DNA of 13,153 nucleotides from an uncultured Lacticaseibacillus sp. Its GTDB lineage: Bacteria; Bacillota; Bacilli; Lactobacillales; Lactobacillaceae. The notes under the pieces were generated by a model, which was given only the letters and a program-made list of their open reading frames with translations, was not told the origin of the DNA and did not search any database. This document shows, one piece after another, positions 1-12,370 of the stretch (its first letter is position 1; every line of letters starts with the position of its first letter). Location: contig CAKQZO010000036.1 in assembly GCA_934293835.1 (NCBI GenBank), positions 1-13,153 on the forward strand, given 5' to 3'. The translations under genes were made by a program, and so were the position numbers.

Positions 1-86
1 GGACTGCGCAAGCAAGCTTGCTCCGTCAAGTACACCCGTTACGCTACGCCCTAAGTACGGCCACGCTCCGCTCTGGTTTCTTCGTC

Positions 87-198
87 GAGCTACGTGGCGC
101 AACGGTGGGCTGGATAAGCTGTCCCGGTCACGCACTGGCTGCGCCAGCACGAGCCCAGGCCATCTTCTCCTCCCACCTAAAAGCGCGCCACTTCGCCC
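87..198 (-). repeat. Hairpin module, GTGGCGC stem type
   Basis: Left arm: GAGC (87-90), TAC (91-93), GTGGCGC (94-100). Right arm: GCGCCAC (185-191), TTC (192-194), GCCC (195-198). The 7-bp inner stem is perfect. Inside it GGTGGG pairs with CCCACC, and a small CTGGC/GCCAG hairpin sits near the centre. The outermost tetrad is GAGC/GCCC, with one mismatch compared with the other modules. Confidence 0.8.
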
Positions 199-211
199 TG
201 GTTTCTTCGTC

Positions 212-321
212 GAGCTACGCTGAGCAATGCTGGGCTGTCTAAGTCATGCCGCCTTCGCGATGCTTCACATCTCTGCGGTGCCCTGCCTTAGACTCCCAGC
301 ATAAACCGCTCAGCTCCGCTC
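212..321 (-). repeat. Hairpin module, GTCTAAG core type
   Basis: Left arm: GAGC (212-215), TAC (216-218), GCTGAGC (219-225), ATGCTGGG (227-234), GTCTAAG (237-243). Right arm: CTTAGAC (287-293), CCCAGCAT (295-302), GCTCAGC (308-314), TCC (315-317), GCTC (318-321). All four named stems pair perfectly. The GTCTAAG/CTTAGAC core is shared with module 2427-2538, while the outer stem is not. The argB stop codon lies 5 bp beyond the right arm. Confidence 0.85.
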
Positions 322-326
322 TGGTT

Positions 327-1070
327 TTATCCTGCTATCGCGGCTTCGACGATCGTTCCGGCGTGCTCTAGCGCGTCGGTGATGACGACTTCGTTCACGA
401 CCTGCGCGGTGTGGGCCGCGGCTTCAATCTTCGGCTGCATGCCCTTGGTGATCACGTTGGTGGCGATCAGTTGCGCGGCCTTTTGTGGTGTCAACTTAGG
501 TACGACACTCCCCGCTTCCAATACGCCTGGCACGTCAGTCAGCAAGACCAGCTTCGCAGCGTGCATCGCCGTGGCGACCGCCGCGGCTGCCATGTCCGCA
601 TTCACGTTCAACAGTTGGCCGGCTTCGGTTTGCGCCAGCGGCGCCAAGACGCCGATATGATTTTCCAAGAAGCCTTCCAAGGCTTGTGCGTTCACTCCGG
701 TGACGGCGCCGACTTGGCCGTAAATCGTCGCATCGAGAAAATCGCCGACCAGCAAGTGCTCGTCGCTCGTATTCAGCCCCAATGCCGGCAGGCCGTGCTG
801 GTTCAGCGCTAAGCACAGTTGCGGTTGCACCAATCCGAGCAAAACGGCTTGAGTAACTTGCAAAGTTGCTGCATCGGTGACCCGAATCCCCGCCTTTTTC
901 ACCGGTGTCAGCCCAAACTTCTGGCTCCAGGCATTGATCTGCGGCCCGCCACCATGAATCAAGAGGACGCGGTTGCCAGCCTCACGCCAAGTATGCAATT
1001 GTGCGAAAAATGCCGGGGATAGCTGAGTCGCGGCATTGCCGCCTAATTTGACGATAATTAATTCTGACAT
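327..1070 (-). CDS. argB: Acetylglutamate kinase
   Basis: ArgB phosphorylates N-acetylglutamate with ATP, the second step of the acetylated ornithine/arginine pathway, in the cytoplasm. The 247-residue protein has the amino-acid-kinase fold signatures in order: VKLGG with Lys8, HGGGPQIN (39-46), GIRVTD (61-66), NVNAD ending in Asp159, LLTDVPGV and KGMQPKIEAA with Lys214. Lys8, Asp159 and Lys214 correspond to the catalytic residues of the E. coli enzyme. The ATG follows AGGAGG at 6 bp spacing. It lies 21 bp downstream of argJ and is surely co-transcribed with it. The catalytic strand begins almost at residue 1, so the N-terminal helix typical of arginine-inhibited, hexameric family members is missing. 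The stop codon is the first triplet of hairpin-repeat block 1. Confidence 0.96.
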   Translation of the reverse strand: MSELIIVKLGGNAATQLSPAFFAQLHTWREAGNRVLLIHGGGPQINAWSQKFGLTPVKKAGIRVTDAATLQVTQAVLLGLVQPQLCLALNQHGLPALGLNTSDEHLLVGDFLDATIYGQVGAVTGVNAQALEGFLENHIGVLAPLAQTEAGQLLNVNADMAAAAVATAMHAAKLVLLTDVPGVLEAGSVVPKLTPQKAAQLIATNVITKGMQPKIEAAAHTAQVVNEVVITDALEHAGTIVEAAIAG

Positions 1071-2276: not shown

Positions 2277-2388
2277 GTGCGTGTCCTCCTTGATGATGTT
2301 TTTTTCTATTGGTTAGTAAGTTTCTGGTTTGAGATTTTCATGTGGCTCGCCCAACATTGCTGAGGATAAATCGGATTCGTCTTTCGTA
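2277..2388 (-). other. argJ leader between repeat block and argJ
   Basis: In the argJ direction this is a 112-bp stretch running from the distal end of the repeat block to the argJ start. It holds the strong AAGGAGG ribosome binding site (2285-2291) and an A-run. I see no convincing promoter or terminator in it, so argJ is presumably read from the argC promoter through the repeat block. Confidence 0.5.
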
Positions 2389-2426
2389 GGCAGTTAGGCG
2401 GATCCGGGCACGCCACTCTTTTCGTC

Positions 2427-2538
2427 GAGCTACACAGGACAACGCGGTTGCGTCTAAGTCATCTCGGACGTCCACCGGCGGTGCCAGCTCCCGTCCAAGC
2501 TACCTTAGACACACCGCTAAGCCCGTCCTGTTTCGCTC
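2427..2538 (-). repeat. Hairpin module, GTCTAAG core with ACAGGAC stem
   Basis: Left arm: GAGC (2427-2430), TAC, ACAGGAC (2434-2440), GCGGTTG (2444-2450), GTCTAAG (2452-2458). Right arm: CTTAGAC (2504-2510), ACACCGC (2511-2517), GTCCTGT (2525-2531), TTC, GCTC (2535-2538). Near the tip GGACG (2466-2470) can pair with CGTCC (2492-2496). It shares the GTCTAAG core with module 212-321 but has an entirely different, fully paired outer stem. Confidence 0.85.
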
Positions 2539-2551
2539 TGGGTTTATCGTC

Positions 2552-2664
2552 GAGATGCGCGTGGCCAACGGGCTAGGCCTAACGGTACACTGGACTGCGC
2601 AAGCAAGCTTGCTTCGTCAAGTGCACACGTTACGCTACGCCCTAAGTGCGGCCACGCTCCGCTC
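2552..2664 (-). repeat. Hairpin module, CTTG-loop type with GCGTGGCC stem
   Basis: Left arm: GAGA (2552-2555), TGC (2556-2558), GCGTGGCC (2559-2566), GGGC, GCCTAACG, GTACACTGGAC. Right arm: GTCAAGTGCAC, CGTTACGC, GCCC, GGCCACGC (2650-2657), TCC (2658-2660), GCTC (2661-2664). The 8-bp GCGTGGCC/GGCCACGC stem is perfect. The tip is the palindrome GCAAGC-AA-GCTTGC, which in the minus-strand RNA gives a CUUG loop closed by G-C. Confidence 0.88.
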
Positions 2665-2679
2665 TGGGTTTCTTTCGTC

Positions 2680-2790
2680 GAGCTGCGCTGAGCAACAGGC
2701 TAGGCATAGCGGAATTATCAGCTACGCAAGCAAGCTTGCTTCGCCGATAATCCACACTATGCTACGCCTTAAGTGCGCTCAGCTCCGCTC
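2680..2790 (-). repeat. Hairpin module, CTTG-loop type with GCTGAGC stem
   Basis: Left arm: GAGC (2680-2683), TGC, GCTGAGC (2687-2693), GGC, GCATAG, GAATTATCAGC. Right arm: GCCGATAATCC, CTATGC, GCC, GCTCAGC (2777-2783), TCC, GCTC (2787-2790). The tip again is GCAAGC-AA-GCTTGC. Compared with module 2552-2664 the loops and linkers are the same but nearly all stems differ in both arms. The argC stop codon is 5 bp beyond the right arm. Confidence 0.88.
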
Positions 2791-2795
2791 TGGGT

Positions 2796-3827
2796 TTATG
2801 GTAATGCCACGGTTGTTGGGAGGCCTGCCAGCGGATCTAGGTTGAACATCTGGTTGAAGTTTTGAATCGCCTGACCACCCGCGCCTTTGATGACGTTATC
2901 GATCACGCTGACGACCAGCACCGTGTTCGTAACCGGGTTGTATACCGCACCGATATCGGTGAAGTTGCTACCGACGACTTGTTTGAGCGTCGGCAAGTTG
3001 GTGCCGGTGAAGCGGACGAAGAAGTCATCTTGATAGGTGTCCGCGTATGCCTTGGCGATCGCTTCGCCGTCGACTCCCGGCGCGACTTTCGCATAAATCG
3101 TCGCCATCAGGCCGGTGGTCACCGGCAACAGCGTCGTGGTGAATTGAAGCGCTGGCACCTCAGGATCCCACTGCTGGAGCTCCTGCATGATTTCTGGAAT
3201 GTGCTTGTGGGTGTTGATGCCATATAACTGCAAGTTCTCGTTCGTCTGGCTAAAATGCGTCAGCGCCGTTAATTTCTTCCCCGCACCGGAAGTCCCTGAC
3301 TTCGCGTCAACGATGATCGAATCCTTCTGAATCAGGTGCTGTTGTACCAGCGGCGCCAGCCCTAGGAGCGTGGCCGTCGCGTAACAGCCAGGGTTGGCAA
3401 CATACTTATGTGCACCAACCGTGGCGAATTCGGCGAGGCCAAAATGCGCCTGCTGCAGCGCGGCTGCCGGAGCTGCTGGTTTGTGGTACCACTTCTCATA
3501 AGTGGCCGGATTCTTCAGTCGATAATCACCGGAGAGATCGATGACTGGGAAGGCTGCGGCGATGAACGGTTCTGCGAGTGTGTTCGTGATTCCGGCGCTT
3601 GTGGCGAAGAACAACACGTCGTTGTCTGCCATGATCGCCTGTGGGTCATAAGGAAGCAACAAGTTGTCCTCGGTCGGGCCGAACTGAGGAACGGCCTCAT
3701 ACAGTGGCACCGCGGTCGTTTGGTCGTGACCATAGAGGTTGATGACATCGACACTCGGATGTCCTTTGAGAAGTTGATACAAGACCATGCCGGCATAACC
3801 GGTGACGCCCACTAACGCTACTTTCAT
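2796..3827 (-). CDS. argC: N-acetyl-gamma-glutamyl-phosphate reductase
   Basis: ArgC reduces N-acetylglutamyl phosphate to the semialdehyde with NADPH, the third step of ornithine synthesis. The 343-residue protein starts with the dinucleotide-binding loop GVTGYAG (7-13). It carries the active-site Cys148 in NPGCYATA and a downstream HKHIPEI segment containing the family His. Length is normal and the C-terminus (GLPTTVALP) looks natural, so the adjacent repeat has not truncated it. The ATG is preceded by AAGGAG at about 9 bp spacing. It is the first gene of the minus-strand arginine operon and diverges from carA across a control region with ArgR-box-like sequences. Its stop codon TAA is directly continuous with hairpin-repeat block 2. 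Confidence 0.96.
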   Translation of the reverse strand: MKVALVGVTGYAGMVLYQLLKGHPSVDVINLYGHDQTTAVPLYEAVPQFGPTEDNLLLPYDPQAIMADNDVLFFATSAGITNTLAEPFIAAAFPVIDLSGDYRLKNPATYEKWYHKPAAPAAALQQAHFGLAEFATVGAHKYVANPGCYATATLLGLAPLVQQHLIQKDSIIVDAKSGTSGAGKKLTALTHFSQTNENLQLYGINTHKHIPEIMQELQQWDPEVPALQFTTTLLPVTTGLMATIYAKVAPGVDGEAIAKAYADTYQDDFFVRFTGTNLPTLKQVVGSNFTDIGAVYNPVTNTVLVVSVIDNVIKGAGGQAIQNFNQMFNLDPLAGLPTTVALP

Positions 3828-8163: not shown

Positions 8164-8170
8164 CCAAATA

Positions 8171-8216
8171 AATAGAGGAGGAACTGTGACATACGTCACA
8201 GCGCCTCCTCTATTTT
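8171..8216. terminator. Bidirectional terminator between carB and nox
   Basis: AATAGAGGAGG (8171-8181) pairs perfectly with CCTCCTCTATT (8204-8214). Inside, after a 3x3 internal loop, TGTGAC (8185-8190) pairs with GTCACA (8195-8200) around a 4-base loop. A TATTTT tract follows on plus and TATTTATTT on minus, so it can serve both convergent genes. Confidence 0.88.
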
Positions 8217-8225
8217 CGTTCCTGT

Positions 8226-10567: not shown

Positions 10568-11203
10568 TCAATTCTTCAATTCAAACTGCGCGATCGGCCG
10601 CTCGGCGCGCGGCTGCATAGCGCGGTTGTTCGCGCCGAATTGCGCAACGAACCACGCCGCTTGCGCCGGGCTGACCGTCAGCGCTGGCGCATCGATGACA
10701 TACCACAACACGCCTTCCGTCAGCGGCGGGGTCGTCAAGGAACCCAGATAGTGATACACGGTCCCCGTCGTCGGTACTAATGATGTGAGCGCGATGTCCG
10801 CGGTCACCTGTTGGCCAGGCGCGAAGGCCTCTATGACCTTTTGAATTGTCGGGTTTGCCGCGCCAGCGCCCAGCATCACCGCGACGACGCACAGCTGCCC
10901 GAGGCGCGTCTGATGCACCAGATGTAGCTCCATCGCGGCCGGGCGCGTCGTCTGATGTTCGGTCGGCACGTGGAAATGCGCCTGGACGCAATGGTAATGA
11001 CTGGCGCCGATCGCCAACTCGCCGGTCCCCAACAACTTGATCGTCGTCTCGTCATCTTTGACCTGCGTCATTCGGTAAGGCGTCACCACCGTTAATGGCG
11101 CCGCCGGTAACTTGATCATATCGGCCACCTTCAATTCAATTGGTGACTGTTGCTGGCCGAAACCATTCGGCCAATGTGCCTGATCTTGATAATTTAACGT
11201 CAA
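10568..11203 (-). CDS. Alpha-class carbonic anhydrase
   Basis: Interconverts CO2 and bicarbonate at a zinc site. In the 211-residue protein the zinc ligands are His76 and His78 in AHFHV and His94 in MELHLVH. Glu82 corresponds to Glu106 and Thr157 in SLTTPP to Thr199 of the human enzyme numbering. The N-terminal QSPIEL is also typical. The proton-shuttle position, usually NGH, reads TGE (Glu62), so catalysis may be slower or use another route. There is no signal peptide, whereas many bacterial alpha enzymes are exported, so this one is predicted cytoplasmic. It starts with TTG, supported by GGAGGAG 8 bp upstream; the nearby ATG at 11220 is out of frame and stops at once. It has its own terminator. 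The bicarbonate produced could feed CarB. Confidence 0.93.
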   Translation of the reverse strand: MTLNYQDQAHWPNGFGQQQSPIELKVADMIKLPAAPLTVVTPYRMTQVKDDETTIKLLGTGELAIGASHYHCVQAHFHVPTEHQTTRPAAMELHLVHQTRLGQLCVVAVMLGAGAANPTIQKVIEAFAPGQQVTADIALTSLVPTTGTVYHYLGSLTTPPLTEGVLWYVIDAPALTVSPAQAAWFVAQFGANNRAMQPRAERPIAQFELKN

Positions 11204-11332
11204 AAGTTATTCTCCTCCATTAAATACAAAATATAGACGACATCTGATTCATCAACACGGTTTCGGTTACATCCCGACAATACCAACCACAAGATCAACG
11301 AGCATTGAAGCTGATCGAATTTCCCGGCTGAA
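11204..11332 (-). promoter_or_regulatory. Leader of the carbonic anhydrase gene
   Basis: This A+T-rich stretch between repeat block 3 and the carbonic anhydrase start holds GGAGGAG (11211-11217) and a possible -10 TATATT in the minus direction (about 11231-11236). No good -35 is paired with it, so a separate promoter is possible but not shown. Confidence 0.3.
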
Positions 11333-11512
11333 GGCAGTTAGGCGCCCAGCAAAAACCGCTAAGCCCGCCCTGCTTCGCTCTGGTTCTTTCGTCGAGCTGC
11401 GCTGAGCAACAGGCTAGGCATAGCGGCACTAATGCCTGCGCGAACAAGTTCGCTCCGTCATTAGTACACGCTATGCTACGCCTTAAAACCGCTCAGCTTC
11501 GCTCTGGTTTTA
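11333..11512 (-). repeat. Hairpin-repeat block 3, downstream of the metal-binding lipoprotein gene
   Basis: In the sense direction the block begins with the lipoprotein stop codon (11510-11512) and continues AACCAGAGCGAAGC. It contains one complete module (11394-11504) and a right-arm-only remnant (11356-11380, CCGCTAAGCCCGCCCTG) similar to module 2427-2538. It ends at GGCAGTTAGGCG (11333-11344), the same 12-mer as the end of block 2. It accounts for most of the 306-bp gap between the lipoprotein and carbonic anhydrase genes. No U-run follows, so it is not an obvious intrinsic terminator. Confidence 0.9.
11394..11504 (-). repeat. Hairpin module, CTTG-loop type with changed apical stem
   Basis: Left arm: GAGC (11394-11397), TGC, GCTGAGC (11401-11407), GGC, GCATAGCG, ACTAATG (11428-11434). 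Right arm: CATTAGT (11459-11465), CTATGC, GCC, GCTCAGC (11491-11497), TTC, GCTC (11501-11504). The tip is GCGAAC-AA-GTTCGC (11440-11453), where the other modules have GCAAGC-AA-GCTTGC: the two arms changed together while the loop was kept. Confidence 0.88.
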
Positions 11513-12370
11513 TTGAATTTTCGCCAGTTCGTTGTATTGTTTCAGCATCCAGCTGGTATAGGTCAACCCCTTGGGCAAGGTTTCGGTCACATGCAGGATC
11601 GGTATCCCGTCGCGCTTGACTTCGGCCACGGCGCTATCGACAATTTTACTCTGCACCTGAGTATTCACGACGAAAAAGGCGATCTTACCCTCACGCAATT
11701 GGCGATTAAGCGTGCGTACATCTGCTGGGCTGGGGTCGGTGCCTTCCTCCACCGCCGAGGCAAAGTGTGGATTGGCGACCCGGTAACCCATATACTGCAA
11801 GGCATTGTCAAACACCGGTTCCGATACGGCCACCAAGCGGTGCTGGCTGTTGGCTTTGAGTGTATCGATCCGCGCCATCAACGGCTTTAGTCGGTGAATA
11901 TAGCGCCGCGCGTTGGTCCGATAGGCCTGCGCATGTTTGGGGTCTTGCTTAGCAAGCGTCGCGGCAAGCGCATTGGCCAGCTTTGGCATCGCCTGGGGCT
12001 TATACCAGATGTGCTCATTCTCACCGTCTTTGACCCCGACCACCTTGGCCGCCGACAACACCCGCACGTCTGGTTCGGCGGCGGTCAGCTTCGTCATCCA
12101 CGAATCATAACCCGCGCCGTTGGCTAACACGACATCGGCATTGGCGACCATCTTGCCCGTCGCGACCGTGGGGTCAAAATCGTGCAGATCGACGGCCGGA
12201 TCGTTGATGACACTGGCGACACTGCCATGCGTCCCGACCACGGCTTTGGCGACTTCGGCATAAAAATCTACACTCGTCACGACCCGCACCTTGTGATTGG
12301 CTGGCTTCGCCGCACAACTGGCCAGCACGATCACCAACCCAATAATGAACATCCCAAGTTTTTTGCGCAC
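11510..12370 (-). CDS. Metal-binding ABC transporter substrate-binding lipoprotein (ZnuA/PsaA family)
   Basis: A cluster A-I metal-binding protein anchored outside the membrane. The 286-residue precursor begins MRKK, then a hydrophobic segment and the lipobox LASC with Cys19 as the lipidated residue. Likely metal ligands are His63 (DLHDFDP), His120 (EHIWYKP), Glu184 (SEPVFDNALQYMGY) and Glu263 (VTETLPKG). A Glu in third place and no His-rich loop recall manganese-type PsaA/MntC more than zinc-type ZnuA, but the metal cannot be settled by eye. The start is GTG at 12370, 6 bp after AAGGGGG; the next Met would remove the lysine-rich signal start. No permease or ATPase gene is adjacent in this window. 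The stop codon is continuous with repeat block 3. It diverges from a LysR-type regulator. Confidence 0.88.
   Translation of the reverse strand: MRKKLGMFIIGLVIVLASCAAKPANHKVRVVTSVDFYAEVAKAVVGTHGSVASVINDPAVDLHDFDPTVATGKMVANADVVLANGAGYDSWMTKLTAAEPDVRVLSAAKVVGVKDGENEHIWYKPQAMPKLANALAATLAKQDPKHAQAYRTNARRYIHRLKPLMARIDTLKANSQHRLVAVSEPVFDNALQYMGYRVANPHFASAVEEGTDPSPADVRTLNRQLREGKIAFFVVNTQVQSKIVDSAVAEVKRDGIPILHVTETLPKGLTYTSWMLKQYNELAKIQ

Follow-up and report, generated by a model that had tools for sequence, protein, structure and literature searches.

The window, by which is meant the whole 13,153-nt stretch of DNA from an uncultured Lacticaseibacillus sp. that was analysed, carries the minus-strand genes argC, argJ and argB, the plus-strand genes carA and carB and further genes, among them a znuA-like one. 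The best relatives of its ArgJ were those of the Lactobacillus MAG represented by locus L001 (87%), L. porcinae (86%), L. manihotivorans (85%) and L. baoqingensis (84%), which makes a Lacticaseibacillus of this group the most likely source. Three arrays of hairpin units lie 3' of argC (2421-2793), argB (1-324) and the znuA-like gene (11388-11507 plus half a unit), and no gene lies between units in the window (Table 1). A covariance model, R1, built from modules of the window and of the five genomes G001-G005, found six full modules, all on the minus strand, and one further module cut by the window edge (1-76). The first module of the argC array begins 2 nt 3' of the argC stop codon TAA (2796-2798). 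The minus-strand 13-mer CGCCTAACTGCCT terminates both the argC and the znuA arrays (2388-2400 and 11332-11344), these being its two matches in the window, and positions 1-79 are 94% identical to positions 2592-2670. Elsewhere in the window a near-perfect 21-nt palindrome 3' of carB (8166-8219) is probably a terminator; a match of this palindrome to mir-6 fell below the curated score, was taken as chance and is unrelated to the modules. A gene for a eukaryotic-type (alpha) carbonic anhydrase (10568-11203) lies close to the znuA-like gene.

Table 1. Genes flanking the hairpin arrays and the units of each array, with the evidence for each assignment
Feature	Position	Strand	Evidence
argC	2796..3827	-	Pfam semialdehyde dehydrogenase domains; homologous to argC of L001-L003 and L057
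argB	327..1070	-	Pfam amino acid kinase; gene order and homologues
znuA-like gene	11510..12370	-	Pfam ZnuA
argC array, module 1	2674..2793	-	R1 80.1 bits; -63.9 kcal/mol, z -5.9
argC array, module 2	2546..2667	-	R1 62.4 bits; -62.8 kcal/mol, z -4.8
argC array, module 3	2421..2541	-	R1 109.9 bits; -66.0 kcal/mol, z -6.2
argC array, distal tail, perhaps a decayed module	2388..2420	-	Sequence
argB array, module 1 (2 nt 3' of argB stop)	206..324	-	R1 98.5 bits; -56.6 kcal/mol, z -6.0
argB array, module 2	81..201	-	R1 110.1 bits; -63.8 kcal/mol, z -4.4
argB array, module 3 (3' end cut by window edge)	1..76	-	R1 22.5 bits
znuA array, module 1 (2 nt 3' of stop)	11388..11507	-	R1 80.9 bits; -60.7 kcal/mol, z -5.6; sequence
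znuA array, partial second module (one half only)	11332..11387	-	Foot-repeat family D2 copy at 11362-11389; 13-mer at far end

Each unit is one long hairpin of ~120 nt (117-125 nt across 52 aligned units), and successive units start 116-128 nt apart (107 intervals). Read on the minus strand the plan is CCA-GAGC-GNA-[7-8 bp]-GnnnTTA-[5 bp]-...-apex-...-[5 bp]-GTT-[7-8 bp]-GNA-GCTC-GACGAA, so that the GAGC/GCTC foot leads into a 3x3 loop, GNA/GNA, and then a stem of 7-8 variable bp, the asymmetric loop GnnnTTA/GTT and further variable stems. The minus-strand folds of the six complete modules ranged from -56.6 to -66.0 kcal/mol (z -4.4 to -6.2), with none of 200 shuffles as good for any of them, and the plus-strand folds were weaker (-44.5 to -54.9 kcal/mol, z -1.0 to -5.1). 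The functional strand is the minus strand, i.e. the coding strand of argC, argJ, argB and znuA. The modular hairpin family proposed from a sequence-only reading of this DNA is thus real, as all six complete modules fold beyond their shuffles and are recovered by R1. Seven of the arm pairs that it quoted, six from the outer stem and the mid-stem pair ACTAATG/CATTAGT, lie exactly where it had placed them, and the apical arms GCAAGC/GCTTGC and GCGAAC/GTTCGC are also present. Two other mid-stems are present with imperfect pairing: CACTGGAC/GTCAAGTG (2588/2616) has one central mismatch and AATTATC/GATAATC (2713/2746) pairs only with a one-base bulge. The arrays are not CRISPRs, in which near-identical repeats alternate with unique spacers, since here the tandem unit itself varies and the linkers are a few bases long; nor are the units intrinsic terminators, since the long hairpin runs into a GACGAA-type linker with no T-run. 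As to MITE-like terminal inverted repeats, each unit is itself one palindrome and some intergenic gaps contain two arrays facing in opposite directions. Such pairs, with their left ends outward, were seen in L095/L148, L096 and L128, the first of them being common to G001 and G004.

To follow the variation among units, a two-foot regular expression was run on 60 fetched stretches, the window and locus L057, yielding 184 raw and 177 distinct modules; it requires both feet and badly decayed units are therefore missed. The sampled arrays came from 38 stretches of G001 and 18 of G004. Among the 177 modules there were 76 arm combinations of the outer stem, built on 45 left arms, and 95.4% of the cells of the 7-bp stem were paired, against a mean of 64.6% and a maximum of 68.8% in 500 right-arm shuffles that retained the kinship of copies. 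An alignment of 52 diverse modules (A2), the units behind R1, contained 37 pairs, of which 31 had changed on both sides. Its pairing (91.1% against 68.1% in column shuffles) and covariation (0.606 against 0.189) were reached by none of 500 shuffles, and structures slid along the alignment attained at most 47.6% paired and a covariation of 0.131, although both controls leave the relatedness of copies in. Covariation across five helices thus exceeded all 500 shuffles and all slid controls. ORFs within the arrays (e.g. 2555-2845, plus strand) were rejected as coding and are taken as by-products, because the underlying DNA covaries as a fold.

The mismatches that are tolerated differ between the strands. 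Among distinct arm pairs under a neutral filter the outer stem had 19 G-U and 3 A-C mismatches and the next stem 11 and 6, so that for both stems together G-U outnumbered A-C by 30 to 9 (p 0.001). Over all helices of A2, minus three columns of fixed G-U, the counts were 89 and 25, the cells not being independent; the outer-stem tally made alongside retained 168 of the 177 modules (67 of the 76 arm combinations). The 3x3 loop has GNA on both sides in 162/177 modules, which as a motif is confined to the sense strand, and the GNA/GNA and GnnnTTA/GTT loops are kept unpaired at fixed positions. If duplex DNA or arm copying alone mattered G-U and A-C would be expected in equal numbers; the G-U excess and the GNA loops therefore argue for selection on a single strand. 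It is the sense strand, in single-stranded form, on which selection appears to act; RNA is the simplest reading of this and single-stranded DNA the alternative. Selection on structure, as first proposed from retained pairing alone, is supported by covariation beyond all shuffles, by the G-U excess and by the kept loops.

Units within an array are probably related by descent and are also replaced from outside. Linkers were identical in 19% of within-array pairs as against 0.8% between arrays, and such array-specific linkers suggest that arrays grow through tandem duplication. Remnants were found at the far end of 35/66 arrays and at the near end of 13/66 (background 26/122), while the folding energies of first and last units did not differ (p 0.44, 49 arrays). 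Seven array sites were common to the sampled arrays of G001 (39) and G004 (20). For the 14 positional unit pairs at these sites the best match in the G004 sample was the counterpart once, a unit in a neighbouring slot once and a unit elsewhere 12 times; best matches had similarities of 0.80-0.95 and counterparts of 0.40-0.84, by a crude string ratio and with slots that may have shifted. At the shared sites 43 outer-stem cells had changed on both sides and still paired, 2 had changed on one side, 2 were broken and 51 were unchanged, which implies that the sites are retained while units are swapped as blocks. Compensation between modules in the window is therefore largely block exchange, and the divergence that kept the structure arose in the genome-wide pool. 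This qualifies the earlier appeal to several independent helices: since differences between modules at one site are largely due to the replacement of whole hairpins from the pool, the helices cannot be counted as separate evidence of stepwise compensatory mutation. Exchange cut mainly at the asymmetric GnnnTTA/GTT loop was ruled out, since the same inner hairpin was found under a different outer stem in only 3/147 cases. The change of arms in blocks, with so few singly changed cells, is also what would be seen if there were no selection and the arms were kept matched by mutational copying from one to the other (quasi-palindrome correction) together with recombination. That account is nevertheless very unlikely, for copying should erase the internal loops, yet both stay unpaired, and it is strand-symmetric, yet the mismatches are not.

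Units of this kind were widespread. R1 matched 26 of 30 genomes of the L. baoqingensis genus at E<=1e-3, several of them with more than 100 units; the matches in G001-G005 arise partly by construction, because R1 was built on their modules. At least 120 units were counted in G001 and at least 111 in G004, with 120 candidates scored in each. Among 201 sampled Lactobacillaceae genomes, searched at E<=1e-4 with stricter filters, 20 matched, 13 of which were outside the 30 genus genomes. Forty-nine named genomes, comprising 33 Lactobacillaceae and 16 others, gave ten matches, all in Lactobacillaceae (eight Secundilactobacillus, Companilactobacillus halodurans and Paucilactobacillus suebicus) and none in the 16 outgroup genomes. 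Counts from these searches of more than 40 genomes are lower bounds, because S. odoratitofui scored zero despite having a unit at argJ. Around argJ, 80 loci yielded 15 R1 matches at E<=1, in seven loci, all of Lactobacillaceae. The foot, the GNA-type loop and the order of stems recur in the units of distant genomes. A search at the DNA level gave at least 79 matches in G001, the genome of L001 (40 of 56 candidates scored), 38 in G004 (L. baoqingensis), six in L. daqingensis, one each in L. porcinae and L. manihotivorans and none in L. pantheris. The L. casei-type unit was found on 15 plasmid records from Lacticaseibacillus and Pediococcus, 14 of which matched it over 80% or more of its length, with no annotated feature listed beneath these copies in an incomplete gene table; the window-type array had no plasmid match. 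Phage records gave no match to the element, nor did viral contigs searched with two exact patterns, and on these searches a phage origin was rejected.

In the window's group the arrays are placed asymmetrically. A sense stop codon was abutted by 37/61 array starts and an antisense stop codon by 1/66 array ends (p 2e-14). For arrays with a matching gene the left edge was on a stop in 37/52 and the right edge in 0/21, and among arrays without far-end remnants the right edge was on a stop in 1/31. T-runs were not enriched at left edges (left 3/61, right 4/66), Shine-Dalgarno complements showed no clear enrichment (4/61 and 3/66), and 17 of the 61 array starts were outside all three boundary classes. 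The raw tally of upstream genes was 48 sense and 15 antisense, with three arrays lacking one, but gene calls were ORFs of at least 70-100 aa made with no gene finder and some are mis-called. The flush placement may in part be survivorship, as the stop-codon side is the only harmless place in compact operons.

The arginine genes provide filled and empty sites. The argC-argJ spacer, where the window carries an array, is 23-28 nt in L001, L002, L003 and L057 and 14 nt in L005, which have no array there. L001, L. pantheris and Secundilactobacillus odoratitofui carry units between argJ and argB that begin at the stop codon of argJ, and no unit is present there in the window, L002, L003, L005 or L057. 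The unit at L001:11184-11427 is of a second subtype (AGAGCGCGACC...GCGCGTTTA) which shares bases with the argJ stop codon, in a genome otherwise rich in the first subtype.

Other species showed other boundaries. Among 49 first units of G015, G028, G021 and G011, seven abutted a stop codon, 12 a T-run, six a Shine-Dalgarno complement and 24 none of these. The stop-codon contrast was absent (left 7/49 against 3/26 free right edges), that for T-runs was weak (12/49 against 1/26, p 0.03) and that for Shine-Dalgarno complements was not clear (6/49 against 7/87, the 87 including inner units). Orientation to the upstream gene had no overall bias in these four genomes (14 v 16, 14 v 16, 7 v 8 and 3 v 9), which rules out a universal sense orientation. 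The presence of both orientations in other species speaks more for a mobile element than for a device dedicated to mRNA. Some units adjoin a gene read in the opposite direction, on its Shine-Dalgarno side, which a role as mRNA stabiliser does not predict. Some units elsewhere sit behind the T-run of a terminator. In G011 (L178, L269) and G012 (L161) a sense unit lies between the 23S and 5S rRNAs, 2 nt past the end of the 23S model, with the 5S rRNA behind it observed in L178 and L161; G014 (L162) has a similar flank ahead of a unit and the 5S behind, 79 nt of the 23S side having been examined. Work by Chen et al. in 2000 on the 23S-5S spacers of L. casei-related strains may have met such an rRNA-linked copy.

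Two multi-copy non-coding sequences were observed next to units. G004 has three copies of a 410-nt non-coding gene (L180:1501-1910, L182 and L183) with a promoter-like TTGAC-17-TATCTT, each carrying a unit at its 3' end, followed in one case by a terminator-like palindrome. By eye this gene contains hairpins with GGCAAC loops, and it had no match in Rfam; the copy in G001 (L181) is 75% identical and is followed by a decayed unit. The second sequence, of ~700 nt, occurs in G001 (L114:1399-2097, L126:1291-1992 and L108:1-179) with arrays behind it and nearly the same ending, GTCTTTGGTGTG(C/A)AAAAAA.

The search for a mobiliser gave no candidate common to the genomes with units. Y1_Tnp was found in 13 of the 30 genus genomes and was absent from 14 of the 26 hairpin-bearing ones, a count that does not distinguish RAYT from IS200 and in which drafts may miss a copy. 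Reverse transcriptase (RVT_1) was found in 11/30. Neither was found in 12 of the 26 hairpin-bearing genomes, including G005, G006, G015 and G020 with at least 72 units each, and three of the four genus genomes without units have one or the other. A RAYT/IS200 element or a reverse transcriptase as the general driver was rejected on the basis of these 12 genomes, though drafts could hide a copy. No target-site duplication was seen when filled and empty sites were compared by eye, between different species only.

We tentatively read the units, with a little less than even confidence, as a mobile EFAR/REP-like interspersed repeat of the Lactobacillaceae whose tandem units are putative RNA 3'-boundary hairpins. 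Units would be co-transcribed with the upstream gene, and their hairpins would act as a 3'-boundary barrier that shields the upstream RNA from 3'-5' exonucleases and, within operons, insulates it from the next cistron. New units would be made by tandem duplication, and ectopic recombination with the genome-wide pool would overwrite them; the first insertion may have followed a non-autonomous EFAR/MITE-like route. It is quite possible, though we give it distinctly less than even credence, that the repeat is selfish only, a MITE- or REP-like element whose RNA or single-stranded DNA hairpin serves its own spread and which does nothing for the host, being tolerated where genes end. The high and uneven copy number, the plasmid copies in two genera, the occurrence of both orientations in several genomes and the wholesale turnover of units at shared sites would all be consistent with this; set against it are the seven array sites shared by G001 and G004, the distribution of Y1 and reverse transcriptase genes, the lack of matches in the phage records and, for exact patterns, the viral contigs, and the absence of any readable target-site duplication. 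That the one-strand hairpin is instead a single-stranded DNA recombination site, recognised by a nuclease or recombinase in the manner of attC or IS200 and used to shuffle units between arrays, is quite unlikely: a strand-specific fold and the exchange of units between sites would suit it, but 14 of the 26 hairpin-bearing genomes have no Y1 (HUH) transposase, the units of the window have no gene between them, and sense placement behind stops in the window's group and behind 23S rRNA suits RNA better. A bolder form of the RNA reading, which we regard as unlikely, is that strand-specific hairpin cassettes land at RNA 3' boundaries (stops, terminator ends and the 3' end of 23S) by an RNA-level route targeted to 3' ends, with no known transposase or reverse transcriptase, and that units circulate among conserved sites across the family as an exchangeable 3' module.

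In many lactic-acid bacteria related to Lactobacillus casei, then, the element is found, often immediately past a gene's stop codon. It is a high-copy element with strong covariation, present in 26 of 30 genomes of one genus, yet has no Rfam match, and copies reach 23S-5S rRNA spacers and plasmids. If the putative 3'-boundary hairpins do set RNA 3' ends, gene expression from numerous operons of food and probiotic bacteria would be affected. Common sites, exchanged units and a conserved fold together make a countable system for the spread of palindromic repeats without a visible transposase.

Comparison with described elements gave likenesses rather than an identity. The modules of the window had no match in Rfam 15 even at E<=1, six array-bearing loci had none at the gathering score, and no description of the hairpin family in Lactobacillaceae was found in the full-text literature searched, which leaves subscription journals mostly outside; the earlier statement that this is not a named family holds as far as these sources reach. 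GOLLD, Lacto-rpoB, Lacto-usp and lactis-plasmid, which passages of PMC2864571 and PMC12286853 describe as structured RNAs of Lactobacillales, share the bacterial order and were not among the Rfam 15 matches of the window modules at E 1. The 23S-5S spacers of L. casei-related strains are covered by Chen et al. 2000, as cited in a section of PMC6160870. REP sequences are, in a section of PMC3733652, high-copy palindromes of 20-40 bp that lie 3' of coding regions and are plausibly transcribed. The units resemble REP/BIME (GTAG- or CGTC-tagged) in copy number, palindromy and position downstream of coding regions, but at ~120 nt they exceed the 20-40 bp given in that section, and the presence of Y1 transposases, to which RAYTs belong, does not follow that of the units. 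In the window's group the complementary strand has a CGTC at the foot of the hairpin, the complement of GACG; L. casei-type units lack it.

ERIC and BOX are alike in being long intergenic hairpins, and the units are set apart from them by description, not by sequence. ERIC is ~127 bp long and BOX is built on a plan of parts; neither is known to us to form tandem arrays that have strand-specific loops and covary between genera. ERIC is predicted to form one long stem-loop (in a passage of PMC2267715) and is co-transcribed in Yersiniae (in a passage of PMC1590033).

The closest known system, judged by description rather than by sequence, is EFAR/Efa of Enterococcus, which is also a large intergenic palindrome repeated in a genome of the order Lactobacillales, although R1 matched neither of two Enterococcus genomes (E. 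rivorum and E. dongliensis). EFAR has variable parts and inserts into stem-loops, deleting most of the target. The terminators ahead of some units here look intact by eye, and the empty argC-argJ sites, which bear on the question of an EFAR-style stem-loop target, are 14-28 nt long. PMC1590033 probably means EFAR by its 'Efa' elements, as PMC2267715 does by its Efa-1 family. Parts of these sources place Efa elements preferentially near the 3' ends of CDSs (PMC1590033), and EFAR is counted among MITEs in a passage of PMC3733652. Efa-1, as described in a section of PMC2267715, folds into two adjacent stem-loops, whereas here each tandem unit is one long hairpin.
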